64,000 bases of DNA from assembly GCA_013215055.1 (NCBI GenBank), contig JABSRQ010000007.1, positions 62,001 through 126,000 of the forward strand. The letters are read 5' to 3'. Source of the DNA: Pseudomonadales bacterium (GTDB lineage Bacteria; Pseudomonadota; Gammaproteobacteria; Pseudomonadales; DT-91). The translations under genes and the position numbers were made by a program. This document shows, in pieces, positions 12,534 to 41,428 of the stretch. Within the stretch, counting starts at the first letter, position 1, and each line of letters opens with the position of its first letter. Under the pieces are notes generated by a model, which saw only the letters and a list, made by a program, of their open reading frames with translations, was not told the origin of the DNA and ran no database searches.

Positions 12534-12690
12534 ATGAGTCTGGTTGATGTTTTAAAAAAATTACAAGAAAAGAACATTTCAATCTCACTTGACGGTGATC
12601 AACTTAAGGTCAACGCCGCCAAAGGTGCGATGACCAAAGAGTTGATGCAGCTGCTAAAGCAAAACAAAGAGGCCTTATTAAGCTGGGCCA
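12534..12690 (+). other. NRPS: TubC-type N-terminal docking domain
   Basis: Residues ~1-52 begin LVDVLKKLQEKNISISLDGD and continue with a LKVNAAKGA strand and two helices (LMQLLKQNKEALLSWAK). This matches TubC docking domains, which receive a growing chain from an upstream synthetase. No such partner is encoded in the window. Confidence 0.7.
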
Positions 12691-15600
12691 AGCAGCAGCA
12701 AAACAAGGCAGATAACAGCAAGCCTATTCCACAACGTGATAATAACAAACCATTAAAGCTGTCTTTCTCGCAGCAACGTTTATGGTTTGTGGAACAACTG
12801 GCCCCAGGCAATGCCACCTACAATGTACCGGCTGCGATTGTTTTAACCGGCAGCTTAAACACGGATATTTTACAGCAGGTTTTAAACACATTAATTCAGC
12901 GCCATGAAGCCCTGCGCACATCATTTATCGATAACGATGGTGATGCCGAACAAATCATTCATAACGCTGTTCATATGCCGATTCAGGTAGAACATTGTGA
13001 TTATGCCTTGGCCGATAAAGACGCTCTATTAGCACTGGCTGCCGATGAATTATTGAAACCGTTTGATTTAAGCCAAGCCCCTTTATTTCGGGTGCGGGTA
13101 TTAAAACTACGCAGCGAAGAACAAGATCAGCATTTATTACTATTAAACCTTCACCATATCATCACCGACGGCTGGTCTAACGGTATCTTGCTACAAGAAA
13201 TCGCACAATGTTATGCGGCAATTTCCCAACACAAAATACCTTCGTTGCCTGACGTTCAAGTGCAATATGCCGATTATGCGCAGTGGCAGCAGGAGCAGTT
13301 ATCGGTAGAACAGCTGCAAGAAAAAACCCTGTGGTGGAAAGAGCAATTAGCCGATGTTGCCATCCTCGAGCTGCCTATTGATCACAGCCGCCCGGCGCAA
13401 AAATCTGGTCGTGGAGGTCTGCTTAAATTTCAAGGTGATGAAAAAATCAGCCAAGGTATGGCGACACTCACCAGCCACCAAGGTTGCACCGCATTTATTG
13501 GGCTCTTAAGTGCTTACCAGGTTTTATTAAATCGCCTAACGGGCCAAAGTGACATCTGCATAGGCACACCTTCGGCTAATCGACATAGACCCGAAGTTCA
13601 AAACACCCTGGGGTTCTTTGTGAATACTCTGGCGTTAAGAACCAAGCTAACAGACTCACTTAACTTCAATGAATTATTGGCTTTAAGTAACAAAGTATTT
13701 ATTGACGCAAATGATCATCAAGATGTGCCGTTTGAATCCATTGTTGATAGCCTAGGTTTATCCAGGGAAATGAGCAGCACAGCTATTTTCCAAACCATGA
13801 TTTCCTACCAAAAAGGTGAGTTACAGAAAAGCTTTGCTTTGGAACATCTCAATATCGAAGCCCTGGAAGTAGAAACCCACACCGCCAAGTTTGATTTAAC
13901 CTTAGGCATATTGGAAACCGATGCCGGTTATGCCTTTTCTTTTGAATACGACAGCGATATTTTTAGCGCCGCAACGATTCAATCTTTTGCCGATTATTAT
14001 CTGCAGTTATTAGAAAACATTATCCAACAGCCCGCTAATAATATTCATCAACTGGATATATTAAGCTCGGCCCAAAAGCAGCAATTAATTCAACAAGGTC
14101 AAGGTCCGGTTACCAACTACCCCAAGGCTGTGAACTTGGCTCATCAAGTTGAGCAATGGGCGATAAAAACCCCCGATGCTATAGCGGCAGAATTTGATCA
14201 ACTAAAAATCAGCTATCAACAGCTGGATCAACAAGCCAGTCAGTTTGCGCATCAGCTTAAAGACTCGGGTTTTTGCCGTGGTGATATTTTAGCCTTAACA
14301 CTGCAGCGCAGCCCCGAGATGCTGATAGCCATTCTCGCCGCGGTAAAGGCCGGCGGCATATATTTACCGATTGACCCTAACTATCCCGATGACCGCATAA
14401 AATATATGTTAGAGGACAGCCAGGCTAAGTCTATTATTTGTGATGCCTCGCAACTTATCCGGTTAAAAGGTTTATTAAAAAATTCCACATTAGCTTCACG
14501 TTTAATCGATTTAGATCAGCTGCAACAAGAAGCAGCCAGCAGAAGTAGACAATGGAAAACAGAGCCCGATAATAATCAGGGCCAGGATGGCGCCTATTTG
14601 ATGTATACCTCAGGTTCCACCGGCCAACCCAAGGGTGTATTGATTCCACAAGCCGGTGTTAGCCGCTTGGCGGTAAACACCAATATGTGTACCACCACAT
14701 CAAGCAGCCGTATCGCGCATGTATCCAATGTCGCCTTTGATGCGGCGGCTTTGGAGATTTGGACCGCGCTGTTAAACGGCGCCTGTCTGGTAGGCATAAA
14801 ACAAGATGATTTATTAGATGGCCAACGCTTCGGCGAAATCATTCAGGAAAAAGACATCTCCTTCCTGTTATTAACTGTGGCGTTATTTAATGTTTTTGTC
14901 AGTGAAAACCCTGCCATCTTTGCCAATATTGATTACCTGTTTGCCGGCGGTGAAGCGGTAGATATACACAAGATCAATGCGGTGTTAGCGGCTAAAAACT
15001 CACACGGTGAACCTGCAGCACCCAAACATTTAATTAATGCCTATGGCCCCACCGAAAATAGTTGTATCAGCAGCTTTTATGAAATCACTGAAACTCAAAC
15101 GCGCCAGGTACCTATAGGTTCGGCGATAAGTAATTCCAGCTGTTATATTCTTGATGCTTTTGACCAGTTATGCCCACCGGGCATAAGCGGAGAATTATGT
15201 ACCGCCGGTGATGGTTTAGCGATTGGCTATTTAAATAAACCCGAACAGACAGCAGCGGCCTTTATCACTCATCCGTTTAAAGCCAATGAAAAACTATACC
15301 GTACCGGCGATATCTGTCGCTGGAATACGCAGGGTGAAATTGACATCCTAGGGCGTATCGATGAACAGATAAAACTACGTGGATTTCGTATAGAGTTAGA
15401 TGAGATTAATCGTCATCTAGGTTTGGTTGAAGGCATAAAAGAAGCTGCCGTTGTGGTAAGAGATACTGGCCATCAATATTTAGCCGCTTATATCGTCGCC
15501 GAAGGCATTGATTCAAGCTCCGATGATAAAGAGGCTGCCTTACAATTTATTCAAAAAATAAAAACCGTATTAGGCGCACAGCTTCCTCACTATATGGTGC

Positions 15601-18600
15601 CACAGGCTTTTGAATTTATGCCCGCACTGCCCATCAGTGCCAATGGTAAATTAAATAAAAAGGCGCTGCCTGAACCTAGTTTCTCCTTAGCCGGTGCCAA
15701 TGAATATATCGCTGCAAGAAATCCATTTGAACAAGCCATCGCAGATATCTGGGGCGACATTTTAAACCTGGAAAAAATCAGCGTTTTAGATAACTTCTTT
15801 GAAATCGGTGGTCACTCGTTATTAGCCACACGTGTTATTGCACAAATTCGCCAACGCTTTTCTATCGACATTCATCTACGCGAATTATTTGATAATCCAA
15901 GCATTGCCGAATTAGCCTTACAGGCACAGATGCTGCAAGGCCAGCAGCAAAACATGCCAAAACTGATTGCGATTACAGAGGCAGACAGACCAGAACGTTT
16001 ACCACTCTCTTTTGCCCAGCAACGCCTGTGGTTTATTGATCAGCTGTCTCCCAACACCTCCGTTTACAATATGCCCTTTGCAGTAAGGCTGCAGGGTGAT
16101 GTCAACATCACAGCCTTACTGCAAGCGTTTACTCAACTGGTACAGCGCCATGAAAGTTTACGCAGCCGTATCATCAGTGAAAAAGGCCAAGCCTGGCAGA
16201 TTGTTGATAAGCTCAAAGATGATGCCATATGTCCGTTCTATGAAGTTAACGATGATGAACAGGAGATTCTCAACCGAGCCAGCGAATTTTTATTAAAGCC
16301 GTTTAATCTTGCTGACGATAAGCTTATGCGTGCCGAATTATTATTACAGAAAAACAGCGGTGATTTTGTGTTATTGGTTTGCATGCATCACATCATCTCT
16401 GACGGCTGGTCTATGGATATTTTTATCCGCGATTTATTGACGCTTTATCAAGCCAATGATAAAAACCTGCCATCCCCGTTAAAACCCTTGGCCGTGCAAT
16501 ATGCCGACTATGCCATTTGGCAAAAGACCTACCTTAATGATGATGTATTAGGCAAACAAACCACCTATTGGAAGCAACAACTTGCCTATTGCGAGGTGTT
16601 AGAATTACCGATTGATTACCCTAGACCTGCTGTATTAGATAACCGCGGTGCTCAACATCACTTTAATCTACCACTTAAACTCAGCCAGCAACTGAGGCAA
16701 CTGAGCCAACAACAAGGCTGTAGCTTGTATATGACCTTGCTGGCCAGCTTTAAAATATTATTAGCCAAATATTGTAATCAAACCGATATCGCCATAGGCA
16801 GCCCGATTGCTAATCGCCCGGTCGCCGAACTGGAAGATATGATTGGCCTCTTTCTCAATACGCTGGTTTTACGCAGTCAGGTTGATGATCAGCAAAACTT
16901 TAATAGCTTTTTACACGATGTTAAAAATACCACGCTGGATGCCTACCAACATCAGGACCTGCCTTTTGAACTGTTGGTTGATGAATTAAACGTAAGCCGG
17001 GATACCAGCCAGACACCGTTATTCCAAGCGATGTTTATTTTACAAAGTTCATCTCAGGCAGGCTTCTCAGAGTTATCAAACTCAGAAGTTAACGGCATTA
17101 AACTCACCGCGCTGAATGAAAACAGCACGGAGCAAACCGCCAAATTTGATATCACGCTTAATATTATCGATACCGAAGCACAGTTATCGGCGGCCATTGA
17201 ATATCGAAGCAGCTTGTTTTCTCAGTCAAGCATGGCGCGTATGGCAGAACATTTAATCGGCCTATTGGAAACCATTGTTGATCAACCTCAGCAAAAAATC
17301 GCCGATATCAGTTTTGTTACCGAGGCCGAAATCCAGCAACAAATGGATTTTGAACACGGCTTAAATGCAACAGATCATCAATACCCACACGTTGATGCCT
17401 TACATTTATTGATTGAAAAACAGGTCGCTAAAACCCCCGAAGCCACCGCCATTATTTATGCCGATACTCAACTTACTTATCAACAGTTAAATCAACAAGC
17501 CAATTTATTAGCCCAGAAATTAATTCATAGTGGTCTTCAAATCGGCGAGCCGGTAGGTTTATGTGTATACCGCAGTGAAAAAATGTCTATCGCCTTATTG
17601 GCCATTTTAAAAGCCGGCGCTGCGTATGTGCCGTTTGATCCCGACTTCCCGTTAGAACGCTTAAACTTTATGGCCAAAGATACGGCCATCAAAGTATTAA
17701 TCACCGATGTCGATATAAAAAATCATCGCGACATCAATGTCAAAGAAACCATTTTGATGAGCGATGCTGCGCAATGGCAAGATTATAGTGATGCCAATAT
17801 CAATATTGAGTTTTCCAAAGACGCGCTATTTAATATCATCTACACCTCGGGTTCTACCGGCGTACCTAAGGGCGTTATGGTGCCCCACCAGGGCATCATT
17901 AATCGCCTGCAATGGATGCAGAAATTTTATCCACTAGGCACAGAAGATGTGGTTTTACAAAAAACCCCGTATAGCTTTGATGTATCGGTTTGGGAATTAT
18001 TCTGGCCGTTGATGCAGGGCAGCAGCTTGGTTTTTGCCGAAAGAGACGGACATAAAAACCCGCAATATCTAAGTGACATCATTCAACAACATCAAGTCAC
18101 CACCCTGCATTTTGTGCCCTCTATGTTAGGTATATTCTTGCAGCTGAAAGACATCAAAGATTGCAAAAGTATTAAGCAGGTATTCTGTTCCGGTGAAGCG
18201 TTACAGTTAGAACATGCACGCCAGTTTTATCAGCAACTGAAACAGGCCCAGTTACATAATTTATATGGGCCTACCGAAGCCTCTATCGATGTCTCCTTTT
18301 ACCACTGTGTAGAAAATGAGACACGGCGCAGCATTCCTATCGGAAAACCAATTCATAACACCCAACTGCATATTCTGGATTCATCGCTGAATATCGTGCC
18401 TACCGGTGTAGCAGGCGAACTGTATATCGGCGGCACAGGTTTGGCATTAGGTTATTTAAATCGCCATGATTTAACCCAGCAAACCTTTATCGAAAATCCG
18501 TATGCCAAAAGTCATGGCCATGCCAGCAAAAAACTCTATAAAACCGGCGATGTTGCTCGCTATTTAAGTGATGGTAATATCGAATACCTGGGCCGCACAG

Positions 18601-21600
18601 ATCATCAAATTAAAGTACGTGGCCAACGTATAGAGCTGGGAGAGATTGAATCCCGCCTACAACAGTTGGAACACGTTAGAGAAAGTATTGTGGTGGCTAA
18701 ATCACCCGATGGTGATCAAACTAATATGCAGCTGATTGCCTATTGCTTATTACCTAAAGGGCAGGAAGAATTAGATCACAATCAAATCAAGGCCAAGCTA
18801 AAACAAGATTTGCCCGATTACATGTTACCCAGCTATTTTATCAGCTTGGATAAATGGCCGTTATCTGCAAACGGAAAAATTAATCGCAAGGCCTTACCCG
18901 ATCCACAGTGGCATGAAAGCAGCCAAGTTTATATTGCTGCAGCAACCGATTTAGAAAAATCGTTAACAGCCATATGGTTAGATCTTTTAAAAGTTGAAAA
19001 AATCGGCATACAGGACAATTTCTTTGAGATCGGTGGCCATTCATTATTAGCCACCCGTTTAACCGCAGAGATTGCCAGTCAATTTGATATTGACTTAAAA
19101 GTCGCCAACATCTTTGACTCACCAACGATTCAATCGTTAGCCGAGTTTATCGAAAATACCGAACTGCACAGCAAAGCTTTACCTGCTATCACCCCGGTTT
19201 CTCGAGATCAAAACCTGCCGCTGTCATTTAATCAGCAGCGCCTTTGGTTCATCTATAAATTGCAGCCTACCGCAGCCAGCTACAATATTCCCACCGCACT
19301 TAAGCTCAACGGGCATCTTGATTTAAAGGCGTTTAATAAAGCGGTGGCCAGTATCTTCCAGCGCCATGAAATTTTACGCACCGTGATTGTTGAACAAGGT
19401 GATGAAGCCTATCAACAGGTTTTGGAAAGCATCGACAATGCTCTTAGCATAGAAACCTTAAACGAGGCGGATCAATTACAAGACATCATTGATGATGAAG
19501 CCAAACGCCCCTTTGATTTAAAAACCGCACCATTAATCCGTCTACGTCTTTTACAAAAAGAAAAGCAGCCTGAGAAAAATATTTTATTAGTCACCATGCA
19601 TCATATTATTTCCGATGCGGTGTCTCTTCAGAATATGGTGCAAGAATTAGCGATTGCCTATTACGGCTTCAAAGAACAAAAGCCACTAACACTGCCACCG
19701 TTAACCGTGCAATACGCCGATTATGCCTGGTGGCAAAACAATATCTTAGCCGGTGACTATTTAGATGAACAATTACACTACTGGCAGCAGCAATTAGCCG
19801 ACGCACCGGCCTTATTAAATCTGCCCACCGACAACATCAGGCCCGCACAACAAAGTAATCATGGTGCAATTTTTAATGCGCAGTTATCAGAAGCCACCGT
19901 TAATCGTGTACGTAGCTTTGCCAAACAAAACCACTACACCCCCTTTATGTTGTTGCTATCAGCCCAGCAATTATTATTGGGACGTTTAGCAGGGGATACG
20001 GACGTATGCATAGGTGTACCTATTGCCGGCAGGCATCAAAAAGGCACCGAAGATTTAATTGGTTTCTTTGTTAACGCACTTATCATCCGCAGCCGCTTTG
20101 ATCACAACCCCAGCGTTGCAGATTTTATTCACAGCGTTAAACAACAGGTGTTAGCAGGTTTTGCACATCAAGATGCACCTTTTGAACAAGTGATTGAACG
20201 CTGCAAGGTTAAACGCTCCAGCGCCTATAACCCGATAGCGCAGATCGGTTTTAATTATATCACCCAACAAAATCAGATTTTATCTCAGCTTTCCAATGAA
20301 CTAGCCGGCATCAGTATTGAAGCGATAGAACAACAAATCACCGATGCTAAATACGACATGATCTGGGCCTTCCAGGACACCTTAACAGATGCAGAAAATA
20401 CTTTTGGCAGCATTACGATCAACCTGGAATACAATACTGATTTATTTAATGCGACAACCGTGCAGCACTGGTTTGAACTGTATGAACAGCTAATCAACAA
20501 TATGTTAAGCGAGCTTGAAGCACCGGTATTAAAATTGGCTTTAAACAATCAAGACCAGCTTCTAAATTGCATCAAAGATAATCACGCCACCCCACAAGCC
20601 ATCGCCGAAGTGCGCCCACTCACAGCGATGCAACGTGACCTATATTTAGATACGGTATTAACACCGGATAATCGCCGCAACTATTTTGGTTGGATACACC
20701 GTATACAGCACACGTTAGATGTAGAGCTCTTTCAACAAGCTATCGATATCATCACCCGACAATTCAGCAGTTTTCGAATGCGACTTGTTGAACCCAATAA
20801 ACCATATTTAGAGTTAGCCTATGCGGCTATTATCGATAAAGACCATGCAGATTCAAAAATTCAGGTTCAGCATTTAGACTGGAGCCAGGATCAATTATCC
20901 AGCGCAGACTTTAATACACGCTGCAAAGAAGAGTTGGCGTTTAAACCTTATAAATTGGCTGATGAGCCACTTATTCGTTTTATAGCCATCAAAGAAACGG
21001 CCAATAGCTATGCCATTGTACTAACAGCACACCATAGTTGCATCGACGGCATCAGTTTACAAACCGTGACCGATGCTTATACCCACTCCTATGCAGCTCT
21101 ACTGAATAAAGAAGATGCCTCAGCCATTCAAGACAGCTTAGTTAAGGATAACTATGCTGCCTATGTACATCAGCAGAATTTGACGTGTGACAATGGCCCA
21201 AGCTACGAATTCTGGCAGCAACAAAGCCAGGGTGTAGAAGCATTAACCGCTGCAACTAAAGCGCTAAACAGCCAGGCGATTAAAGGCAATTATTTCTTTA
21301 AGGAATATTCCGATAGCGCCGAACATTACGCGGCAATACAGCAATATTGCAAAGATAATAACACCACCGCCTTCTTGTATATCAAGGCTCTGTATACGCT
21401 GATGTTGCAAAGCACTTGTTATGCCGATGAAAGCTTTTATTTCACCGACATCATCGCCGCCAGACCCAAAGGCCACATAGCTGAAACCGGCTGTTATTTT
21501 GAACAACGCCCTACCGTTATCGATGCTTCTGCCGTCGATAAAGAGGCAAGCTTTACCGAGTTATTAGACTATTTAAACCAACAACGCATCAAGGTTAGAG

Positions 21601-24600
21601 GTGATACACATATCTCTAATAGTTTACAAAATCGTGTATTCAGCCAATCCAATACGCAATTTATGTTTAACTTCTATCTTACCGAACGTTATCTGCCATT
21701 TTTAGATGGGCAATCGGAAACCACCTTCATCGTACCGGAAATGGATGATGCGGTAACATTCACGACCATTGTTGATGGTGATCATTTATTATTTAACTTC
21801 ACCTATACCGACAATGTTTTTACCGATAACAACTTTGTGCGACGTTTATTACATTTATCCCAGCAAGTCTTAGCAGGTAACAATCAACTTGCAGCACTTC
21901 AGTTACACCTGGCAGAAGAACCTATACCCCTAGCAACCGCGGCCTGTGAATATAATCATAGCAGCGTCATTAGCATGATAGAGGCACAAGCACACCGTAA
22001 CCCTAACGCTTGTGCGATTATCGACTGTGATGCCGGACTTGCTGAACAAACACTGAGCTATAGCGAACTAAACCAAAAATCTAACCAGCTGGCACATTAT
22101 CTACAGCAGGTTCAAGGCATTAAACAAGGTGATACCGTCGCGTTATGTCATGCGGCCAATAGCCAATTTATGATTGCTTTATTAGCCACATTAAAATGTG
22201 GCGCTGTATATATTCCGGTAGATATAAATTATCCGATTAAGCGCATCAACTATATTCTTGAAGATTCGTCAGCCCGTTGTATTCTCAGCGAATCAGGCAT
22301 GCAAGAAACCTTAAAGGATATTCAGGCAAATAAAGTCTATCTGGATTCCTTATCTGCAGAGATTCAAAAACACAAAACCGATAACTTAAATCTCACTATC
22401 GACATTGATGATCTACTGTATTTAATTTATACCTCTGGCTCTACCGGTTTACCCAAGGCTGCGATGGTAAAACAGCGTGGCGAGATCAACCTTATTCAAT
22501 GGTATATCAAAGAGTTTACTTTAAACGAAAGTGACAAGGTACTGATCAGCTCAGCCACCGGTTTTGATTTAACCCAGAAAAACCTGTTGGCATCTTTAAC
22601 GGCAGGGTCCAGCATCGTATTCCCTAATATGCAGGACTATGACCCACAACTATTATTAAACACGATACAGCAGCAAAAAATCACTTTAAGTAACTGTGCG
22701 CCTTCGGCCTTTTACCCGGTAGTAGAAGCTGCTGCAGATGAAAATAACAACTTCAAAAGTTTGAGTTCTTTACGCTTGATGTTATTTGGTGGTGAGGCTA
22801 TACGCATCAACAGCTTTATCGACTGGCTGCAATCTCCTTTAACGGGATGTCAGTTGGTGAATATGTATGGGCCAACCGAATGTACCGATATTGCCAGCTT
22901 TTATCGCATTGAAGAACCTGCCAACTTTATCAACACGGCTATTCCTATAGGCCTGGCTAATGACAACGTTCAACTTTTTATTGCCGATAGCAGCTTAAGA
23001 TTATTGCCTGCAGGTTTTTCAGGTGAATTATTAATTGGCGGTGAAGGTATCGGTGCCGGGTATTTAAATAATGAGGCTCTGACACAGACAAGTTTTATCA
23101 ACCACCCCATTGCAGGGCTTGTGTATAGAACCGGGGACCTGGTTCAGCTTCAACCCGATGGTAACTTTGTTTTTATTAATCGCATCGATCATCAGGTTAA
23201 AATACGTGGCCTACGTATAGAGCTGGGTGAAATTGAATACGCTTTAAAAGATTTGTCTGAAGTGATAGATAGCTTAGTTCTCGTTAACGAGGAAGAAAAA
23301 CTCTGCGCCTATGTATTAACTGATACCGGCAGTAAGCCTGAGAACTGGCGTCAAACTTTGGCTTTATCGCTTAGCGATTATATGATTCCACAGCAGCTTA
23401 TAGCTATGAAATCCTGGCCTCTGACCGCCAACGGCAAGATTGATAGGAAAGGCCTGCCCAAAGCTAATGATGAAGATCAAGCCCATAACACCGCGTATAT
23501 AGCGCCACGTAATGAGACCGAGCAGCAGCTTTTAACTATTTGGCAGGAAGTACTGGGCCAGGAAATTATCGGCGTTAACGATAATTTCTTTGATTTAGGT
23601 GGCCATTCATTATTGGCGGCAAAAGCCGTTACCCGTATACGGGAACACTTCCAGCAAGACTTACCATTGAGAGAAGTTTTCCTTTCCCCGACTATTGCGG
23701 CTATTGCCGAATTATTAGAACAAGGGTCTAACAGCGAAGAAAATAACAACTCACTTTTACCTATGATAGAACCCGCGAATCGTGATGTGTATCAGGGGCT
23801 TTATCCATTATCGTTCACCCAGCAACGCCTGTGGTTGATCGAACAAATTCAACAAGCCAGCAGCATGTACAATATTCCGCTGGCCTTAGAGCTAACAGGT
23901 GCTGTAAATCACTCGGCACTGAATGCTGCGCTGAGAGCGTTATATCAACGCCATGAATCGTTAAGAACACGTATTGTCATCAAAGATGGCAGCGCGTATC
24001 AGCAGGTTTCTAACGATGATCTCATTATTATCGAAAAAACCTCTGAGCAAGTAGACAGTCAAGTTCAAAGTTTTTTACAGCAGCCGTTCAGGCTGGAAAA
24101 TCAGGCATTATTTAAAGTTCAAATAATCCACTGCGCCAAAGATAAAACCGTTTTATTACTAAATAAACACCATATTATTTCCGATGGTTTATCTTCCAAT
24201 ATTCTGTTGCAAGACTTGGCCAGCTTTTACCAAGCTTATAGCAACCAGGAAAAATCTAACTTAGCAGAACTGCCTATACAATATATTGATTACAGCATCT
24301 GGCAAAAAGAACATTTAACTAACAGCGTTTTACAAACTCAAGTTGACTATTGGAGCGGTAATCTAAAACAAAGCCAGGTGCTAGATCTGCCTTTTGATTA
24401 TCCACGTTCAGCTAACAACAGCCTGCAAGGTAGCATCGTTGAGTTTAGCCTACCCGAGGCGACCTCTAAAAAACTAATCCAGCTGGCTAAACAAGAATCC
24501 GCAACGCCGTTTATGTTATTAATCACTGCCTATTATTTATTACTTAGCCGTTACAGCGGCCAATACGATATTAATATCGGTACGGCTGTGGCTAACAGGC

Positions 24601-27600
24601 CACAATCGGCGCTTGAAAACGTTATTGGCTTTTTTGTTAATACCTTAGTCATACGTACCGACATTGAGGCTTCAGAAAACCTGACATTTAAACAGCTTTT
24701 AACCCAAGTTAAACACGTTTGTAGCGAAGCCTATTCTCATCAAGACTTACCTTTTGAACGATTGTTAGATGATCTGGATATCGAAAGAGACTTATCTCAC
24801 TCACCTTTATTCCAGGCATTTTTCACCTTGCAAACGGCAGCTGAAATAAGCAGCCAGACCCTGGATATAAATGGCACTCAAATAAATGCTTATCAGGCCA
24901 ATAGCGTCAATTCTGGCAACATAAACACTGAAGCCAAATTTGAATTAAGCCTTAGCATGTTAGCGGTTGATGGAAAACTCTCAGGCAGTTTTGAATATCG
25001 TACCGCCTTATTTAAGCCTGAGACCATTCAACGGTTGGCTGAGCATTTTGTTGGACTTTTAAATGCTATTGCTGCAGATGCATGCGTTGATATTCATCAG
25101 CTAGACTTTATTTCTGATAACGAAAAAAATCAGTTGCTGAGCAAACTTAATAACGAGGTTATTGATACAGCCAATCAACAGAATGTTCATGCCTTATTTG
25201 AATCACAGGTAGAGACAACACCTGATGCCACAGCCGTTATTCATGGTGATGAAAAAATAACCTATCAACAAATAAATAATAAAATTAATCAACTGGCGGC
25301 CTATTTACAACAAGAGCTGGCGATAAAAAGCAATAGCCCCGTTGCGCTTTGCCTGGCACCCGGCATTGATTTTATCACCGCGGTATTCGCCGTTGTTAAA
25401 GCCGGCTGCAGCTATATCCCGCTAGATATCATGTATCCGGATGAACGCCTGAAATACATTATTGAAGATTCAGGCACAGGCATCGTGTTATGTAATCAAA
25501 CACAAAAAGACCGATTAACCGCACTGATACAAACGCATGATATAAATCTTATTAACATCTGTGCCGACAATAATACTATTGCCACACACAGCGTTGATAA
25601 CCCTGCCAATATCATCAGCCCAGATACGGCTATTTATAATATCTACACCTCAGGTTCAACCGGAAAACCCAAAGGGGTCACGGTTAAACACCAGGGTGAG
25701 AGTAATTTAATCGACTGGTATATTCACGAGTTTAACTTCTGTGCCCGCGATAGCTTTTTGATTGTCTCGGCTATAGGTTTTGATTTAACCCAGAAAAATT
25801 TCTTTGCACCGTTATGTAGTGGTGCTGCCATTGTATTCCCTGAAGACGTTTTGTTTGATCCTGAAAGAGTCAGAGCACTGATCAACAAAGAACAGATCAG
25901 TATTTTAAATTGCGCCCCTTCTGCGCTATATCCGCTTATCGACAACAAAGAATATTATGCCGAAATCCAAAGCCTACGCTGTGTTTTATTAGGTGGTGAA
26001 CCTATCCACACGGCTACTGTTAACACTTGGTTAAGCGCTACTGAGTTTAACTGTGAGTTGGTAAATATGTATGGTCCAACTGAGTGTACCGACATCAGTA
26101 CTATTTATAGAATACGCAGCCAGGCTGATTTAGAACATGCGGTTATTCCTATCGGCAAAGCCATTCGTGGCACACAGACACTGATTCTTGATGCCAACCT
26201 ACAATTGCAAGCTAAGGGCATTGTGGGTGAACTGTATATAAGCGGTGTGAGTTTATCGGCAGGTTACATCAATAACGATGCTGAAAACCAAAGCAGCTTT
26301 ATAGACAATCCCTTTGCCTCTGGCTTGATGTATAAAACTGGCGACTTGGTTAGATTAAAAAGCGACAATAATATTGAATATATCGGTAGAACAGATCATC
26401 AAGTAAAAATCCGAGGTCTGCGTATTGAGCTAGGTGAAATTGAACAACGCCTGGAAAACATCGATGGCATTGAAAAAGCGCTGGTACTGGCTGTCAATAC
26501 TGACGATGGAGAAGCAAGCCTTGTGGCCTATTATAGTTTCTCAGAAATTGGGCTGTTTATTGAGCCTAAAACACTTCGCCTGGCATTAGCCACACAGCTG
26601 GCCGATTATATGTTGCCGGCCTTCTATCAGCCTATGGATGCCTGGCCGCTTAATGCTAATGGTAAAATCGACAGGAAACAGCTACCGGAACCCAGATGGA
26701 AAAAATCTTCCCGCAGCGATATTGTTAAAGCTAAAAATGCGATTGAAAGGAAATGTGTCGCTATCTGGTTAGACGTTTTGAAACTGGAAGAAGTGTCGAC
26801 TCAAGATCATTTCTTTCAAATCGGAGGTCACTCGCTAAAAGCTGCACAGGTGGTAGCCGATTTACGCAAAGCCTTTGTTATCGATATCAGCTTACGTGAT
26901 ATGTTTGATGCCACCACCATCATTGATTTGGCACTGTTGATAGAGCAAAAACAACAGCAAGGTATGGTGATACCCTCCATCGAAAAAGCCGACAGATCTC
27001 AAACGCTGGTTTTATCCTATGCCCAGCAACGCTTATGGTTTTTGTCGCAACTCGATGCAAGCAGCCCAGCTTACAATATGCCAGCGGCTTTCCGATTAAA
27101 AGGCCAGATCAATACTCAGGCCCTGGAACAAGCTTTAAACAGCATTATTCAACGCCATGAAAGCTTACGCAGCAACTTTATCAAGGTTGAAGGTGAGCCG
27201 CAGTTAATCATTCATGCTGAACGTAAAATGTCTCTTCCCATTAAAAAGGTCGGTTCAGAAGCACAATTGCAGCAGTGCATCAATGACGATGCGAAAGAAA
27301 GCTTTAGCCTTGAAAGCGGCCCCTTGCTTCGCGCTAAATTAATCCAGATAAGCGCTAACGATCACTGCTTATTATTAAATATGCACCACATCATTTCTGA
27401 TGGTACATCGGTGCAAATATTAATTCGTGAGCTGGGCAGCTTATACCTTTCATATCTTAATGGGGTTGGTAATACCTTGCCCGAGCTGGATTTGCATTAT
27501 ACCGATTACGCCAACTGGCAACGACAGTGGCTTCAAGGCGATGTGTTAGATGAGCAAATCAACTTCTGGTCTCAGCAGCTTAGCGGTGCACCCACATTAT

Positions 27601-30600
27601 TACAGCTGCCATTAGACAGGCCACGCCCAAAGGTACAAAGCTTTAACGGCGGCGTTTATAAAACCGTTATCGATAGCGATTTAACCGAATCATTACGCCA
27701 GTTGTCCATGAATAATGGCTGCACGTTATTTATGACCTGCTTAGCTGCGTATCAAACCTTATTAACAAAATACAGCCACCAAAAAGACATCTGTGTAGGT
27801 ATTCCTTTAGCGGGTAGAAGCATTTCAGGTGTTGAAAACATTATTGGTTTCTTTATCAATGCGTTAATTATCCGTACTGATTTCAGCGCCAATTTATCGG
27901 TTCAGGAATTATTAGCCAATATTAAAAATACCACGCTAGCAGCTTTTGCACATGAGCATGTGCCTATAGAAATGCTACTGAATGAACTGGATGTAGAGCG
28001 TAACCTGTCTTTTACACCTTTGGCGCAATGTGCCTTTAATATGTTATCCGCCAGCGATGATGTTTTACCTGAAGGTATCAACGACATCCTGGGTGATTTA
28101 AATATCGAGTTAATGGAAGCCGATACCGTCGTCTCCAAGTTTGATCTGCAGATGAACCTGTTGGACATTCAGGAACAAGGTGAATCAAAACTTAGCCTCA
28201 GCATGGAATACAATAGCGATATATTTGATGAAAGCACCATCAGCACGATGATGACTTTCTATATCGAGATGTTAAAAACATTTACAGAGGCTCCAGAAAC
28301 AACATTAGAAAATATCACTTTAGGGCAGTTTAATCTGCCGACACAGTATGAAAAAGCCTTACCACTCACAGCCATGCAACGGGATATTTACTTGGCTACA
28401 CTGGCTCAGCCCGACACATTAGAAAACAGTTTGGGTTATGCATGGGATGCACCTATCGCTGTTGATGAAGCGTTATGGGAACAAACTTTAATCGACATCA
28501 GCGGCTTATTTGATGTGCTGCGGGCTGACCTTATTCAGAACGATGTGCCGTATCAAGATATTGCCTACCTGGCGGTTAAACCAGTTTCTCAACATCAGAT
28601 CGATTTTGAATTATTAGATTGGACTGAAGAAAAATTAAGTGAAGATGCGTTGCAGCAACGCATCAAAGACTTTGTGGTTAAACCTTATGATTTAGAATCT
28701 GACAGCGGTATTAGCTATCGACTGATTAAAATCAAAGAAGACCATTATTGGGCAACCTGTGCATCACACCATTTATATCTGGATGGTTTTGCAGGTGCGA
28801 TTCATATTGCGTTATTTGCGGCACGTTATGAACAGCTTTATAAAGGTAAACAAGATTTCCCTGAAAAAGACGCCAAGGCGCTTTCGCTTCATTTTGATGA
28901 GTTCAAGATGGAAGATCACTTCCCTGATTATCTACAACAAAGCCGTGCCGAATTTGACAGTATAGAAACGCTGGAATATTGGCGCAATAAATTACAGCAG
29001 TGTGAAGGTTTGCAACTATCCAGCCCGATCATTTTTGAGCCATCATCAGATAATGACAATGGCGAAGCCAAGCTTATTTCACAGGAGATTCCGGTTGAAC
29101 ACTACAAGGCGGTCAAGAAATATTGCCGCCAATTCGCCATCACTCCACCGCTTTATTTTAAGTGTTTATATGCATTATTAATTCAACAATATACCCGTGC
29201 TAACGCCGACTTTGTCTTAACCGAATTTAATGCGGGAAGAAACAAATTCAATAAAGGCAGCATAGGTTGTTTTTATCATACTCAGCCTTTCTGCTTTACT
29301 GCAGAAAGCCTCAGCAATACGCTGGAAGATTTATTTAAATCCAGTAAAAAACATCAGAAAGCCAGCCGTAAACATCTTCAAATATCCAACTTAATGTTGC
29401 GTCAACTGCTGCCAGAATCGGGTGTCTATTTTTCTTATAACTATCTGATGATGCCACATCATACATATATGCTGGATCAGTATTTTACCGGTAATCGTTA
29501 CACTCCTAATGCCACCGGCATGGTTGATTTACGGGTACAGGCCGACGGTGATGAATTGTGTTTATGGCTTGCTTATAACAGCAGCATATTTACTGACCAT
29601 CAGTTCCTGCAGCGTTTATTATCGCTCAGCGAACAATTGCTAGGCGGTGATATTGAACATACTCAACAATTACAATTTATATTGCCAGAGGAAGAAAATA
29701 GCAACACTAATATCAGTAATTATGATATCGATAAAATAGCGCATCAGCTTAAACCTGCAACGGTGCAGCAGCAGTTAGTGCATAATCGTATCAGCTCACA
29801 GGTCATAAAAACGCCAGAAGCAACTGCGGTGAACTGTGCAGATAAAAGCCTTACATACAGCCAATTAGAGCGATACAGTAATGCCTTGGCCAACCAGCTT
29901 ATAGAGCAAGGTCTGCATAGCGGTGATAAAATCGCGATTGTATTAGATAGGTCTATAGAGCTGATCATTGCCATCTTGGCCAGCATCAAAGCGGGGGCTT
30001 GTTATATCCCGTTAGATACAGCCTATCCCGATGAGCGCCTGCAATATATTGTTAATGATGCCCAAGCCCAATTCATTATTGTGCATAATCAACAACAAGC
30101 TAGATTCGAAAATTCATCGGCGCAGCTTATTAATATCGATAACATTAATTTTGAATCAAACACATCACAAACCCCACAGGTGGATATCAACGGCGATGAT
30201 CTGCTGTATATGATTTACACCTCGGGCTCAACAGGCCAACCTAAAGGTGCTTCGGTTTATCATAAAAGCGAAAGCAATCTTTTAAATTGGTATTGTGATG
30301 AATTTGATTTTAATCATACGGATAAAACCCTGATCATCTCCGCCACGGGTTTTGATTTAACCCAAAAGAACTTCTTTGCGCTGTTAACCGTAGGCGGCAC
30401 GGTGGTCTTACCAACGGGTAATGATTTTGATGTCAACAACATCATCAATACCATTAACACGCAGCAGATCAGCCAAATCAACTGCGCACCTTCGGCCTTC
30501 TATGCTTTATTAGAAAGCGCTGAAAACTTATCGCTCTTTAACAGCCTTAAAAATGTCTTTTTTGGTGGTGAGCCAATTCAAATTAAACGTCTACGCAACT

Positions 30601-32351
30601 GGATAGAATCGGATAATTACAGCACTAACATTATTAATATGTATGGCCCTACAGAATGTACAGATATCAGTACTTTCCATACAGTGACCGCAGATGATGC
30701 CAAGAGATTACTGCAAGAGCCTTTACATAATGAAATACCGTTAGGTAAGGCCAATGCAGGTATTAAGCTTTATGTGCTGAATGATCAGTTGCAGAAAGTA
30801 CCGGATGGTTTAGCCGGCGAGCTGTGCATAGCAGGTATTAGCGTAGGGGCAGGTTATTGGAAAAAGCCTGAGTTAAGCCAAGACGTCTTTGTTGTTAATC
30901 CTTATTCAAATACCGAACACGATAAGGTGCTTTATCGCACCGGTGATTTGGTTAGGATACAAGATTCCAAGCTTTATTATATTGGCCGTAAAGACTTCCA
31001 AATAAAGCTGCGTGGTTTACGTATTGAATTGGGTGAAATTGAACAACAGATCAAAGCCTTGCCGGGTCTGATGGATTGTCAGGTCATGCTAGACAATGAC
31101 CAGCTTCTGGCTTTTGGCCTAACACAGGAAAAAAGCATCGATAACTGGCGTGAAATTTTAGCCCAGCAATTACCCGAGTATATGCTACCGGCGCAACTGA
31201 TTTGCATCAAACAATGGCCATTAACGCCTAACGGGAAAATAGACCGGAAAATGCTATTACAGCTGGAACGCCAAACAAGCGATACACAAGTAAGCTTTAT
31301 TGCACCACGTACCGATATGGAAAAAAATCTGGCGACGTTGTGGCAGGAAGTTCTGGGCCTGGGCGAAATTGGTGTACACGAAAACTTCTTTGAAGCAGGT
31401 GGAGATTCGTTATCGGCTGTGCGTTTAATTGCCCGAATAGAATTACGTTTTGAAGTGAAGCTGGCCGTTGCCTCTTTATTTGGTGCGCAAACCATCGCAC
31501 AGCTGGCCCATGTCATTCACAATCAAACGGATGACTGGTCACCGATAGTACCGATTCAGCCTCAAGGCAATAAAACCCCACTATTTGCCGTACATGCTTT
31601 AGGCGCAATGGTATTGAGCTATGAACCTCTGGCCAGAACACTTGGCAAAGATCAGCCGTTTTATGGCATTCAAGCCTATGGCTTTGAAGATGAACAAACG
31701 CCGTTTACCGATATGGATGAAATGGTGACATTTTATGTTGATGCAATAAAACAAACTCAAGCGCAAGGCCCTTATCAGATTATAGGCCATAGCTTTGGTG
31801 GATTAATCGCATTGGAAATTGCCAAGCAATTGATAAACCGCGGCGATAAGGTCCAATACCTTGGATTAATAGACACCTATAAACCCGTGAAATATGTCAA
31901 TATGCCATTGGATGATGCTTTTATTCTGAAAACTTTTGCCGAGCATAATTTTGGTGTAGTGGATATTCCTCTTAATGCTTTAAGGGTCATGAAGCCTGAA
32001 CTTATGATTACAAAGGTTGCGGATAAATTTAACGGTATCGTCAGTGAAGATTTTATTCGTGCGGCTATCAATGTCATACGTGGCTTCCAGCGCATGACGA
32101 TGAATTACAAAGCCAAGCCTGTTGACCTGCCTATACATTTGTATAGACCACAAGATTCATTGGATAACCTTAAAGGAAAAATCAAGAAATTGGTGCTTAG
32201 AGGTAATGCAGATAATCTAGGCTGGCATAAAGTGACAGAAAATTTAACTGTGAGTAAAGTTGAGGGGGATCATCATAGCTTGTTAAACGTGGATAATGTG
32301 GCCTCTATTGCTAAACAGCTACAACAACAGCTAAATGATTTATCGAACTAA
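12534..32351 (+). CDS. Giant five-module nonribosomal peptide synthetase
   Basis: A 6605-residue NRPS that would build a peptide on carrier-protein thioesters in the cytoplasm. Domain order by motif: TubC-type docking (1-52); C1 (HHIITDG, H207), A1 (YTSGSTG, Y691), T1 (S1095); C2 (H1285), A2 (Y1770), T2 (S2170); C3 (H2356), C*1 (H2833), A3 (Y3299), T3 (S3692); C5 (H3879), A4 (Y4371), T4 (S4767); C6 (H4951), C*2 (H5412), A5 (Y5895), T5 (S6292); TE (S6420, D6447, H6580/6581). There is no epimerisation, methylation, heterocyclisation or reductase domain. It is flanked by unrelated genes, so any partner enzymes are elsewhere. Release is by thioesterase, possibly as a cyclic product. The product is unknown. 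Confidence 0.97.
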   Translation: MSLVDVLKKLQEKNISISLDGDQLKVNAAKGAMTKELMQLLKQNKEALLSWAKQQQNKADNSKPIPQRDNNKPLKLSFSQQRLWFVEQLAPGNATYNVPAAIVLTGSLNTDILQQVLNTLIQRHEALRTSFIDNDGDAEQIIHNAVHMPIQVEHCDYALADKDALLALAADELLKPFDLSQAPLFRVRVLKLRSEEQDQHLLLLNLHHIITDGWSNGILLQEIAQCYAAISQHKIPSLPDVQVQYADYAQWQQEQLSVEQLQEKTLWWKEQLADVAILELPIDHSRPAQKSGRGGLLKFQGDEKISQGMATLTSHQGCTAFIGLLSAYQVLLNRLTGQSDICIGTPSANRHRPEVQNTLGFFVNTLALRTKLTDSLNFNELLALSNKVFIDANDHQDVPFESIVDSLGLSREMSSTAIFQTMISYQKGELQKSFALEHLNIEALEVETHTAKFDLTLGILETDAGYAFSFEYDSDIFSAATIQSFADYYLQLLENIIQQPANNIHQLDILSSAQKQQLIQQGQGPVTNYPKAVNLAHQVEQWAIKTPDAIAAEFDQLKISYQQLDQQASQFAHQLKDSGFCRGDILALTLQRSPEMLIAILAAVKAGGIYLPIDPNYPDDRIKYMLEDSQAKSIICDASQLIRLKGLLKNSTLASRLIDLDQLQQEAASRSRQWKTEPDNNQGQDGAYLMYTSGSTGQPKGVLIPQAGVSRLAVNTNMCTTTSSSRIAHVSNVAFDAAALEIWTALLNGACLVGIKQDDLLDGQRFGEIIQEKDISFLLLTVALFNVFVSENPAIFANIDYLFAGGEAVDIHKINAVLAAKNSHGEPAAPKHLINAYGPTENSCISSFYEITETQTRQVPIGSAISNSSCYILDAFDQLCPPGISGELCTAGDGLAIGYLNKPEQTAAAFITHPFKANEKLYRTGDICRWNTQGEIDILGRIDEQIKLRGFRIELDEINRHLGLVEGIKEAAVVVRDTGHQYLAAYIVAEGIDSSSDDKEAALQFIQKIKTVLGAQLPHYMVPQAFEFMPALPISANGKLNKKALPEPSFSLAGANEYIAARNPFEQAIADIWGDILNLEKISVLDNFFEIGGHSLLATRVIAQIRQRFSIDIHLRELFDNPSIAELALQAQMLQGQQQNMPKLIAITEADRPERLPLSFAQQRLWFIDQLSPNTSVYNMPFAVRLQGDVNITALLQAFTQLVQRHESLRSRIISEKGQAWQIVDKLKDDAICPFYEVNDDEQEILNRASEFLLKPFNLADDKLMRAELLLQKNSGDFVLLVCMHHIISDGWSMDIFIRDLLTLYQANDKNLPSPLKPLAVQYADYAIWQKTYLNDDVLGKQTTYWKQQLAYCEVLELPIDYPRPAVLDNRGAQHHFNLPLKLSQQLRQLSQQQGCSLYMTLLASFKILLAKYCNQTDIAIGSPIANRPVAELEDMIGLFLNTLVLRSQVDDQQNFNSFLHDVKNTTLDAYQHQDLPFELLVDELNVSRDTSQTPLFQAMFILQSSSQAGFSELSNSEVNGIKLTALNENSTEQTAKFDITLNIIDTEAQLSAAIEYRSSLFSQSSMARMAEHLIGLLETIVDQPQQKIADISFVTEAEIQQQMDFEHGLNATDHQYPHVDALHLLIEKQVAKTPEATAIIYADTQLTYQQLNQQANLLAQKLIHSGLQIGEPVGLCVYRSEKMSIALLAILKAGAAYVPFDPDFPLERLNFMAKDTAIKVLITDVDIKNHRDINVKETILMSDAAQWQDYSDANINIEFSKDALFNIIYTSGSTGVPKGVMVPHQGIINRLQWMQKFYPLGTEDVVLQKTPYSFDVSVWELFWPLMQGSSLVFAERDGHKNPQYLSDIIQQHQVTTLHFVPSMLGIFLQLKDIKDCKSIKQVFCSGEALQLEHARQFYQQLKQAQLHNLYGPTEASIDVSFYHCVENETRRSIPIGKPIHNTQLHILDSSLNIVPTGVAGELYIGGTGLALGYLNRHDLTQQTFIENPYAKSHGHASKKLYKTGDVARYLSDGNIEYLGRTDHQIKVRGQRIELGEIESRLQQLEHVRESIVVAKSPDGDQTNMQLIAYCLLPKGQEELDHNQIKAKLKQDLPDYMLPSYFISLDKWPLSANGKINRKALPDPQWHESSQVYIAAATDLEKSLTAIWLDLLKVEKIGIQDNFFEIGGHSLLATRLTAEIASQFDIDLKVANIFDSPTIQSLAEFIENTELHSKALPAITPVSRDQNLPLSFNQQRLWFIYKLQPTAASYNIPTALKLNGHLDLKAFNKAVASIFQRHEILRTVIVEQGDEAYQQVLESIDNALSIETLNEADQLQDIIDDEAKRPFDLKTAPLIRLRLLQKEKQPEKNILLVTMHHIISDAVSLQNMVQELAIAYYGFKEQKPLTLPPLTVQYADYAWWQNNILAGDYLDEQLHYWQQQLADAPALLNLPTDNIRPAQQSNHGAIFNAQLSEATVNRVRSFAKQNHYTPFMLLLSAQQLLLGRLAGDTDVCIGVPIAGRHQKGTEDLIGFFVNALIIRSRFDHNPSVADFIHSVKQQVLAGFAHQDAPFEQVIERCKVKRSSAYNPIAQIGFNYITQQNQILSQLSNELAGISIEAIEQQITDAKYDMIWAFQDTLTDAENTFGSITINLEYNTDLFNATTVQHWFELYEQLINNMLSELEAPVLKLALNNQDQLLNCIKDNHATPQAIAEVRPLTAMQRDLYLDTVLTPDNRRNYFGWIHRIQHTLDVELFQQAIDIITRQFSSFRMRLVEPNKPYLELAYAAIIDKDHADSKIQVQHLDWSQDQLSSADFNTRCKEELAFKPYKLADEPLIRFIAIKETANSYAIVLTAHHSCIDGISLQTVTDAYTHSYAALLNKEDASAIQDSLVKDNYAAYVHQQNLTCDNGPSYEFWQQQSQGVEALTAATKALNSQAIKGNYFFKEYSDSAEHYAAIQQYCKDNNTTAFLYIKALYTLMLQSTCYADESFYFTDIIAARPKGHIAETGCYFEQRPTVIDASAVDKEASFTELLDYLNQQRIKVRGDTHISNSLQNRVFSQSNTQFMFNFYLTERYLPFLDGQSETTFIVPEMDDAVTFTTIVDGDHLLFNFTYTDNVFTDNNFVRRLLHLSQQVLAGNNQLAALQLHLAEEPIPLATAACEYNHSSVISMIEAQAHRNPNACAIIDCDAGLAEQTLSYSELNQKSNQLAHYLQQVQGIKQGDTVALCHAANSQFMIALLATLKCGAVYIPVDINYPIKRINYILEDSSARCILSESGMQETLKDIQANKVYLDSLSAEIQKHKTDNLNLTIDIDDLLYLIYTSGSTGLPKAAMVKQRGEINLIQWYIKEFTLNESDKVLISSATGFDLTQKNLLASLTAGSSIVFPNMQDYDPQLLLNTIQQQKITLSNCAPSAFYPVVEAAADENNNFKSLSSLRLMLFGGEAIRINSFIDWLQSPLTGCQLVNMYGPTECTDIASFYRIEEPANFINTAIPIGLANDNVQLFIADSSLRLLPAGFSGELLIGGEGIGAGYLNNEALTQTSFINHPIAGLVYRTGDLVQLQPDGNFVFINRIDHQVKIRGLRIELGEIEYALKDLSEVIDSLVLVNEEEKLCAYVLTDTGSKPENWRQTLALSLSDYMIPQQLIAMKSWPLTANGKIDRKGLPKANDEDQAHNTAYIAPRNETEQQLLTIWQEVLGQEIIGVNDNFFDLGGHSLLAAKAVTRIREHFQQDLPLREVFLSPTIAAIAELLEQGSNSEENNNSLLPMIEPANRDVYQGLYPLSFTQQRLWLIEQIQQASSMYNIPLALELTGAVNHSALNAALRALYQRHESLRTRIVIKDGSAYQQVSNDDLIIIEKTSEQVDSQVQSFLQQPFRLENQALFKVQIIHCAKDKTVLLLNKHHIISDGLSSNILLQDLASFYQAYSNQEKSNLAELPIQYIDYSIWQKEHLTNSVLQTQVDYWSGNLKQSQVLDLPFDYPRSANNSLQGSIVEFSLPEATSKKLIQLAKQESATPFMLLITAYYLLLSRYSGQYDINIGTAVANRPQSALENVIGFFVNTLVIRTDIEASENLTFKQLLTQVKHVCSEAYSHQDLPFERLLDDLDIERDLSHSPLFQAFFTLQTAAEISSQTLDINGTQINAYQANSVNSGNINTEAKFELSLSMLAVDGKLSGSFEYRTALFKPETIQRLAEHFVGLLNAIAADACVDIHQLDFISDNEKNQLLSKLNNEVIDTANQQNVHALFESQVETTPDATAVIHGDEKITYQQINNKINQLAAYLQQELAIKSNSPVALCLAPGIDFITAVFAVVKAGCSYIPLDIMYPDERLKYIIEDSGTGIVLCNQTQKDRLTALIQTHDINLINICADNNTIATHSVDNPANIISPDTAIYNIYTSGSTGKPKGVTVKHQGESNLIDWYIHEFNFCARDSFLIVSAIGFDLTQKNFFAPLCSGAAIVFPEDVLFDPERVRALINKEQISILNCAPSALYPLIDNKEYYAEIQSLRCVLLGGEPIHTATVNTWLSATEFNCELVNMYGPTECTDISTIYRIRSQADLEHAVIPIGKAIRGTQTLILDANLQLQAKGIVGELYISGVSLSAGYINNDAENQSSFIDNPFASGLMYKTGDLVRLKSDNNIEYIGRTDHQVKIRGLRIELGEIEQRLENIDGIEKALVLAVNTDDGEASLVAYYSFSEIGLFIEPKTLRLALATQLADYMLPAFYQPMDAWPLNANGKIDRKQLPEPRWKKSSRSDIVKAKNAIERKCVAIWLDVLKLEEVSTQDHFFQIGGHSLKAAQVVADLRKAFVIDISLRDMFDATTIIDLALLIEQKQQQGMVIPSIEKADRSQTLVLSYAQQRLWFLSQLDASSPAYNMPAAFRLKGQINTQALEQALNSIIQRHESLRSNFIKVEGEPQLIIHAERKMSLPIKKVGSEAQLQQCINDDAKESFSLESGPLLRAKLIQISANDHCLLLNMHHIISDGTSVQILIRELGSLYLSYLNGVGNTLPELDLHYTDYANWQRQWLQGDVLDEQINFWSQQLSGAPTLLQLPLDRPRPKVQSFNGGVYKTVIDSDLTESLRQLSMNNGCTLFMTCLAAYQTLLTKYSHQKDICVGIPLAGRSISGVENIIGFFINALIIRTDFSANLSVQELLANIKNTTLAAFAHEHVPIEMLLNELDVERNLSFTPLAQCAFNMLSASDDVLPEGINDILGDLNIELMEADTVVSKFDLQMNLLDIQEQGESKLSLSMEYNSDIFDESTISTMMTFYIEMLKTFTEAPETTLENITLGQFNLPTQYEKALPLTAMQRDIYLATLAQPDTLENSLGYAWDAPIAVDEALWEQTLIDISGLFDVLRADLIQNDVPYQDIAYLAVKPVSQHQIDFELLDWTEEKLSEDALQQRIKDFVVKPYDLESDSGISYRLIKIKEDHYWATCASHHLYLDGFAGAIHIALFAARYEQLYKGKQDFPEKDAKALSLHFDEFKMEDHFPDYLQQSRAEFDSIETLEYWRNKLQQCEGLQLSSPIIFEPSSDNDNGEAKLISQEIPVEHYKAVKKYCRQFAITPPLYFKCLYALLIQQYTRANADFVLTEFNAGRNKFNKGSIGCFYHTQPFCFTAESLSNTLEDLFKSSKKHQKASRKHLQISNLMLRQLLPESGVYFSYNYLMMPHHTYMLDQYFTGNRYTPNATGMVDLRVQADGDELCLWLAYNSSIFTDHQFLQRLLSLSEQLLGGDIEHTQQLQFILPEEENSNTNISNYDIDKIAHQLKPATVQQQLVHNRISSQVIKTPEATAVNCADKSLTYSQLERYSNALANQLIEQGLHSGDKIAIVLDRSIELIIAILASIKAGACYIPLDTAYPDERLQYIVNDAQAQFIIVHNQQQARFENSSAQLINIDNINFESNTSQTPQVDINGDDLLYMIYTSGSTGQPKGASVYHKSESNLLNWYCDEFDFNHTDKTLIISATGFDLTQKNFFALLTVGGTVVLPTGNDFDVNNIINTINTQQISQINCAPSAFYALLESAENLSLFNSLKNVFFGGEPIQIKRLRNWIESDNYSTNIINMYGPTECTDISTFHTVTADDAKRLLQEPLHNEIPLGKANAGIKLYVLNDQLQKVPDGLAGELCIAGISVGAGYWKKPELSQDVFVVNPYSNTEHDKVLYRTGDLVRIQDSKLYYIGRKDFQIKLRGLRIELGEIEQQIKALPGLMDCQVMLDNDQLLAFGLTQEKSIDNWREILAQQLPEYMLPAQLICIKQWPLTPNGKIDRKMLLQLERQTSDTQVSFIAPRTDMEKNLATLWQEVLGLGEIGVHENFFEAGGDSLSAVRLIARIELRFEVKLAVASLFGAQTIAQLAHVIHNQTDDWSPIVPIQPQGNKTPLFAVHALGAMVLSYEPLARTLGKDQPFYGIQAYGFEDEQTPFTDMDEMVTFYVDAIKQTQAQGPYQIIGHSFGGLIALEIAKQLINRGDKVQYLGLIDTYKPVKYVNMPLDDAFILKTFAEHNFGVVDIPLNALRVMKPELMITKVADKFNGIVSEDFIRAAINVIRGFQRMTMNYKAKPVDLPIHLYRPQDSLDNLKGKIKKLVLRGNADNLGWHKVTENLTVSKVEGDHHSLLNVDNVASIAKQLQQQLNDLSN
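12741..15930 (+). other. NRPS module 1: C1-A1-T1
   Basis: C1 has an intact HHIITDG (H207-G213). A1 pocket residues aligned by eye to GrsA-PheA read D, A, L, L, F, G, A, C, I, suggesting a hydrophobic amino acid; I cannot name it. T1 carries FFEIGGHSLL with the phosphopantetheine Ser1095. C1 follows the docking domain, so it may condense an upstream chain or an acyl starter. Confidence 0.8.
15999..19150 (+). other. NRPS module 2: C2-A2-T2, predicted serine
   Basis: C2 has HHIISDG (H1285). A2 pocket residues by eye are D, V, W, H, F, S, L, I, D, within one residue of known serine codes such as DVWHLSLID of EntF. T2 carries FFEIGGHSLL with Ser2170. This is the most confident substrate call in the enzyme. 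Confidence 0.85.
19200..23714 (+). other. NRPS module 3: C3-C*1-A3-T3 with tandem condensation domains
   Basis: C3 (H2356) has HHIISDA: the usual Gly of HHxxxDG is Ala. After a ~40-residue linker a second condensation-superfamily domain, C*1 (about residues 2690-3125), begins PLTAMQRDLYL and contains HHSCIDG (H2833). No A or T domain separates them. The A3 pocket reads D, L, K, N, L, G, M, D, I; its core motif has PKA where PKG is usual. T3 has FFDLGGHSLL with Ser3692. Confidence 0.85.
23790..26940 (+). other. NRPS module 4: C5-A4-T4
   Basis: A conventional module: C with HHIISDG (H3879), an A domain with pocket D, L, K, N, L, G, M, D, I (identical by eye to A3) and a T domain FFQIGGHSLK (Ser4767). 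There is no tandem C* here, although the same substrate pocket is used. Confidence 0.85.
26970..31515 (+). other. NRPS module 5: C6-C*2-A5-T5 with tandem condensation domains
   Basis: C6 has HHIISDG (H4951). C*2 (from about residue 5270) begins PLTAMQRDIYL, is a clear paralogue of C*1 and keeps HHLYLDG (H5412). The A5 pocket reads D, L, K, N, F, G, M, D, I. T5 has FFEAGGDSLSA (Ser6292), the GGDS form often found before a thioesterase. Confidence 0.85.
31540..32351 (+). other. NRPS thioesterase domain
   Basis: Alpha/beta-hydrolase type I thioesterase, about 265 residues. The nucleophile is Ser6420 in GHSFGG. A candidate acid is Asp6447 (LGLIDTYKP) and the base is one of the histidines in GDHHSLL (6580-6581). 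It would release the peptide by hydrolysis or cyclisation. Confidence 0.88.
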
Positions 32352-41322: not shown

Positions 41323-41360
41323 CCCTGAGACTAAGAACTAAAGCTAAGAAATCTACATAT

Positions 41361-41384: not shown

Positions 41385-41428
41385 AAAAGTATTATAAGCC
41401 CTGCTAAACACAGGGCGGGTAATCGTAT

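Follow-up and report, generated by a model that had tools for sequence, protein, structure and literature searches.

The window, by which we mean the whole analyzed stretch of 64,000 nucleotides, belongs to a gammaproteobacterial genome (G000; 7.19 Mb, completeness 84.7%) and contains one open reading frame (12534-32351, plus strand) encoding an NRPS of 6605 aa. HMM searches gave the domain order C-A-T-C-A-T-C-C*-A-T-C-A-T-C-C*-A-T-TE, in which C* denotes the second condensation domain of modules 3 and 5, and thereby confirmed the tandem arrangement C-C*-A-T, with no A or T domain between C and C*, described in an earlier note on this DNA. The features are as follows (window coordinates, strand).

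12534-32351 (+), NRPS gene, 6605 aa, with the domain order given above
12534-12701 (+), TubC-like N-terminal docking domain, by-eye resemblance to the N-termini of other subunits
12753-14084 (+), C1, ordinary condensation domain
14136-15665 (+), A1, code DALLFGACI (hydrophobic-type)
15996-17339 (+), C2, ordinary condensation domain
17394-18893 (+), A2, code DVWHFSLID (Ser-type)
19209-20558 (+), C3, ordinary LCL-type C domain immediately 5' of C*1, motif HHIISDA
20607-21908 (+), C*1, second condensation domain of module 3, residues 2692-3125, HHSCIDG at 2833-2839
21960-23450 (+), A3, code DLKNLGMDI (homoserine-like)
23505-23714 (+), T3, carrier domain
23793-25133 (+), C4, LCL-type C domain with no C* behind it
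25179-26681 (+), A4, code DLKNLGMDI, in a module without C*
27000-28322 (+), C5, ordinary LCL-type C domain immediately 5' of C*2, motif HHIISDG
28350-29681 (+), C*2, second condensation domain of module 5, residues 5273-5716, HHLYLDG at 5412-5418
29772-31253 (+), A5, code DLKNFGMDI (homoserine-like)
31305-31514 (+), T5, carrier domain
31539-32351 (+), TE, terminal thioesterase, GHSFG at residue 6418

About 28 kb upstream of the NRPS gene lies a TubC-docked single-module C-A-T NRPS with a Ser-type code (L001:1274-4696; contig C428:43274-46696), and in a congeneric genome, G004, two TubC-docked single-module C-A-T genes adjoin the large NRPS gene. A cytochrome P450 gene is found about 18 kb downstream of the NRPS gene (50336-51775, minus strand), with no link to C* shown. 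On contig C4, an NRPS (L007:3679-9402) carries a luciferase-like flavin monooxygenase segment inserted in its A domain, and its C-terminus resembles, by eye, a thioester reductase.

Each C* domain is separated from the full-length ordinary C domain before it by a short linker alone. C*1 (HHSCIDG) and C*2 (HHLYLDG) share the PLTAMQRD start and an intact HHxxxDG motif, as the earlier note had read them, and their paralogy also stands, both domains falling in the same clade with 28% identity to each other. The Pfam Condensation profile (PF00668, cut-off 30.6 bits) recognized C*1 at 87.5-88.3 bits and C*2 at 77.2-78.1 bits, which makes them members of the superfamily, whereas the ordinary C domains of the same NRPS scored 321-390 bits; these low scores, together with a clade of their own in the trees, bear out the claim that C* is unlike the ordinary C domains. 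The AlphaFold2 model of C*1 adopts a condensation fold with high confidence (pLDDT 93.6; Z 36 to C-domain structures). One detail of the earlier note needs correction: the motifs do start at H2833 and H5412, the residues proposed for mutation, but the catalytic histidine is normally the second of the pair, and the sites should therefore be H2834 and H5413.

C* is a family present in some marine bacteria. A third copy was found in the same genome (contig C450:37963-39252), as part of a lipopeptide NRPS line with TubC docking and an acyl-AMP ligase/ACP at its start (L009, G000:C450:33100-41154, together with L006); this line and the window NRPS may belong to the same assembly line. Profile searches detected C* in 12 of 57 relatives, in 28 of 391 genomes of the order and in two more families of the gammaproteobacterial class; a 398-genome sample of the phylum yielded no further genome with a C* match, and plasmid records gave weak matches only, with less than 60% identity. 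The profile separates the family widely, since scores run from 427 to 537 bits within C* and do not exceed 116 bits for other C domains. Altogether 67 distinct C* domains were collected, with the order C-C*-A in nearly all. The full NRPS architecture is conserved in the congeneric genome G004, where identity amounts to 41% for C*1 and 57% for C*2, and orthologous lines show a dN of 0.38-0.57 with saturated dS. Because of the third copy, the recurrence in G004 and the 67 distinct domains, chance or an assembly artefact was rejected as an explanation of C*.

Across the family, identity to C*1 is only 22-40%, and the catalytic motif is nevertheless retained: the second histidine is present in 66 of 67 domains, the aspartate in all 67 and the first histidine in 46 of 50. 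Decay of C* was rejected on account of this retention. Since the His and Asp residues of HHxxxDG are kept across such divergent members, C* is probably catalytically active, in keeping with the earlier suggestion that it may be a catalyst. Family-specific positions include a conserved Asn, Ser and Arg, as well as an Asp at the LCL gate position. The C domains upstream of C* keep both histidines and the aspartate (47/47) and mostly the LCL gate Arg (44/47), the Gly of their motif being replaced by Ala in 8 of 47.

In a tree built from 180 domains, the 50 C* fell on one side of a branch with a support of 100, and a mixture-model tree to which true starter domains had been added gave the same C* clade. 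The trees covered LCL, DCL, E and starter domains and one interface domain, with X, CmodAA, Cy and C_T sequences left out; with respect to the classes covered, C* is a separate monophyletic class. The phylogeny, which the earlier note had named as the decisive check, thus places C* outside the LCL domains and outside the single interface domain included. Ordinary LCL identity was rejected on the separate clade and on a different gate residue: at the position of the acceptor-gate Arg, 40 of 50 C* carry Asp, whereas 38 of 42 ordinary C domains carry Arg. This Arg corresponds to R2577 of the fuscachelin C domain and is thought to favour an aminoacyl acceptor (PMC8097023). C* shares with LCL domains the fold, the HHxxxDG motif and, in the model described below, the seat beside A, but differs in its own clade, the gate Arg to Asp change and the lineage-specific Asn, Ser and Arg. 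Membership of the starter clade was likewise rejected, as the starter references L126 and L127, validated by 478-656 bits to RzmA Cs structures, form a separate clade. E or dual E/C identity was rejected because C* precedes A and because the C domains following C* modules are LCL-type, with the gate Arg in 29 of 29, which gives no sign of epimerization by C*. X domains, which recruit P450s, are located between the last T domain and TE; C*, in contrast, stands before A, and its profile scores 39 bits against the X-domain structure 4tx2, compared with 172 bits for the best C and 62 bits for CmodAA. Structural neighbours of the C*1 model (Foldseek, VIA) were SrfA-C, AmbE CmodAA and RzmA Cs, tied and offering no discrimination among them. 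In the mostly open-access literature on tandem C domains, we found no description of C-C*-A-T, and an earlier one is possible. Judged by sequence, C* appears to be a new subclass in the condensation-domain superfamily with a putative function.

The C*1-A3 pair was also modeled (pLDDT 87.7, pTM 0.80) and superposes as one unit on EntF (867 residues, 3.5 Å), FmoA3 (789 residues, 3.2 Å) and Txo2 (829 residues, 3.9 Å). In this model C* would occupy the seat usually taken by C, with the ordinary C displaced upstream; AlphaFold may have learned the C-A arrangement, and the seating is therefore weak evidence. C* also occurs without a preceding C domain: in genome G025 (G025a), subunit P2 begins with C*, and a subunit starting with C* is found in G493 too, HHxxxDG being kept in both. 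The C*-first subunit of G025 lacks the TubC-like N-terminus that the other two subunits have, and TE resides on another subunit; for these reasons it is probably the initiating subunit.

To read the substrate codes, every A domain was aligned to A3 of the window; the substrate identities given here are code predictions, the Ser, Lys and Orn calls resting on Stachelhaus-type codes. Among 73 A domains that follow C*, 48 carry DLK[NS]xGxD[IV], 16 DIWEMTADD, three a Ser-type, one a Thr-type, two a Lys-type and one an Orn-type code; the two exceptions are of Gly type, where a divergent C* precedes the A domain (G025b), and of Leu/Val type, where the N-terminal C* does (G025a). Codes for residues with a side-chain nucleophile thus make up 71/73 after C*, compared with 32/73 after ordinary C domains (Fisher p = 1e-13). 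The bias persists after thinning of the A domains at 50% identity (p = 2e-7), which lessens but does not abolish shared ancestry among them, and after removal of the DLK codes (p = 0.0099 to 8e-7 across thresholds). DLKN codes also occur behind ordinary C domains in 14 modules without C*, so the residue itself is independent of C*. As to the residues, homoserine is the antiSMASH 4 call for DLKNFGSDVK (PMC7524897). DIWEMTADD is putatively a diaminobutyrate (Dab) code, because EctB-type diaminobutyrate transaminases scoring above the TIGR02407 cut-off adjoin NRPS lines with that code in G032 and L018; EctB-type transaminases also adjoin C* places in G070, G128, G152, G254 and G274. In the literature we found no support for DIWEMTADD as Dab and no source for DIWELTADDK. 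The codes would fit, if indirectly, the branching or ester formation that the earlier note had considered for C*.

By assembly-line logic, one condensation domain makes one bond. Two active C domains in a module, together with residues offering two nucleophiles, would imply two acyl bonds per residue. From the computed layout, monophyly, catalytic motif and substrate-code bias, we infer the acylation, its donor and its regiochemistry as follows. The ordinary C domain upstream would make the chain-elongating bond, and C*, in its predicted seat beside A, would acylate the nucleophile left over where the residue is bifunctional (homoserine, diaminobutyrate, Ser/Thr or Lys/Orn), leaving the residue doubly acylated or branched. 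The alpha-amine could be taken by either C or C*. As donor, C* may use a free (diffusible) acyl thioester, for instance acyl-CoA, in the manner of starter C domains; since the RzmA-like starters cluster apart from C*, donor use is not transferable from them. That C* is a distinct, catalytically competent class adding a second acyl bond to its own module's amino acid is the reading that we prefer, at a confidence a little short of even. More tentatively, C* may be a new functional class that acylates the side chain of bifunctional amino acids in cis, inside an otherwise normal C-A-T module, so that branching or double acylation of a peptide could be predicted from how many C* domains its synthetase has and where they lie, a claim that we regard as possible but rather doubtful.

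The nearest reported precedent is the icosalide synthetase of Burkholderia gladioli, with five C domains in four modules and a Cstart, embedded in module 3, that acylates Ser (PMC8949500), and double acylation or branching is therefore favoured here. The likeness lies in a pair of condensation-type domains at a place meant for a single one, of which the embedded domain acylates the residue of its own module, as C* would; icosalide owes its two lipid tails to two Cstart domains. C* differs in lying outside the starter clade and in occurring up to several times per line. If a second bond per residue is made, current product predictions would fail wherever a C* module occurs, and C*-A-T might serve as an engineering unit to branch or lipidate homoserine and diaminobutyrate. 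The rule that combines the C* motif with the substrate code could be tested by one product structure.

Another possibility, which we consider unlikely, is that C* acts, via the side chain, on the bond that C has made, either by a cyclodehydration (for example homoserine giving dihydro-oxazine, Dab tetrahydropyrimidine and Ser/Thr oxazoline) or by a CmodAA-like dehydration. A side-chain nucleophile would likewise be required, and pyoverdines are known to contain Dab rings of the tetrahydropyrimidine kind. AmbE CmodAA is among the top structural matches of the predicted C*1 fold (Z 36.4, 2.7 Å, 404 residues), but it is tied with SrfA-C and RzmA Cs, which makes the match non-discriminating, and its identity to C* is 17%. 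Moreover, Lys and Orn would give larger rings, the residues after C* include some with nothing to dehydrate (Dab, Lys and Orn have no hydroxyl to lose), and an N-terminal C* has no amide upstream to cyclize. Cy domains are generally known to carry DxxxxD instead of HHxxxDG; C* retains HHxxxDG, which sets it apart from the Cy class.

It is improbable, in our estimate, that C* is a cousin of the interface domain, offering a docking surface through which a trans tailoring enzyme such as a hydroxylase would reach the aminoacyl-T. The siderophore interface domain was reportedly described by Reitz et al. in 2019 and is said to have a profile in antiSMASH 8. Our interface reference was found through a TauD gene fused to an NRPS in genome G077, where the gene after C-TauD opens with a C-type domain, behind which come an Asp-coded A domain (DLTKIGHVG) and T. 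A condensation-superfamily domain immediately before A is thus common to both, and the tree places C* near interface and starter C domains, weakly (support 30). However, SAxxxDR replaces HHxxxDG in the G077 domain, which stands between a fused TauD and an Asp A domain, whereas C* almost always keeps HHxxxDG and precedes Hse-, Dab-, Lys-, Orn-, Ser- or Thr-like A domains; the G077 domain, a single long-branched reference, also falls outside the C* clade in both trees. TauD (PF02668), the oxygenase family searched, was found neither in G000, at its 84.7% completeness, nor in 9 of 18 other C* genomes searched, among them the complete G032 with five C*, and a siderophore beta-hydroxylation partner was rejected for this reason. 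Housekeeping genes surround the G506 lines inspected; a type II thioesterase is the most that adjoins them, and no adjoining tailoring gene was seen. Recruitment of a trans enzyme, the other option of the earlier note, is weakened by the kept motif, by the lack of a hydroxylase gene beside the lines inspected and by the C* genomes without TauD. The G077 interface domain (L110-L112 join, 38968-39426 and 39414-42164) spans two overlapping frames, owing to a sequencing error or a true frameshift.

Quite improbably, C* could perform ordinary condensation beside A, with the upstream C serving in editing or gating or persisting as a relic. The match of the C*1-A3 model to the canonical C-A platform and the Gly to Ala replacement in some upstream C domains would suit such an exchange of roles, but the upstream domains keep both histidines, the aspartate and nearly always the gate Arg, and the substrate-code bias would be left unexplained. 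Very unlikely is an internal starter-type C* that, as in icosalide, always N-acylates the alpha-amine with acyl-CoA while C links the upstream chain as ester or amide to the side chain or to a hydroxyl of the acyl group: the Cstart in module 3 among four modules and five C domains is a precedent (PMC8949500) and N-terminal C* domains exist, but C* stands apart from the RzmA-like starters L126 and L127, and the LCL gate Arg, with its presumed preference for an aminoacyl acceptor (PMC8097023), is present in the upstream C.

Two minor observations concern other loci. The L057/L058 join (15576-27941, minus strand; residues 2079-2217) includes a C-C*-T module with no recognizable A domain, in which both C (HHIACDA) and C* (CHAMFDG) are off the consensus motif. 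Adjoining C* lines at L120:17790-19031 and L056:12113-13414 are stand-alone proteins of 414-434 aa with marginal, below-cut-off matches to Condensation/wax-ester-synthase profiles, and these are possible acyl-transfer partners.
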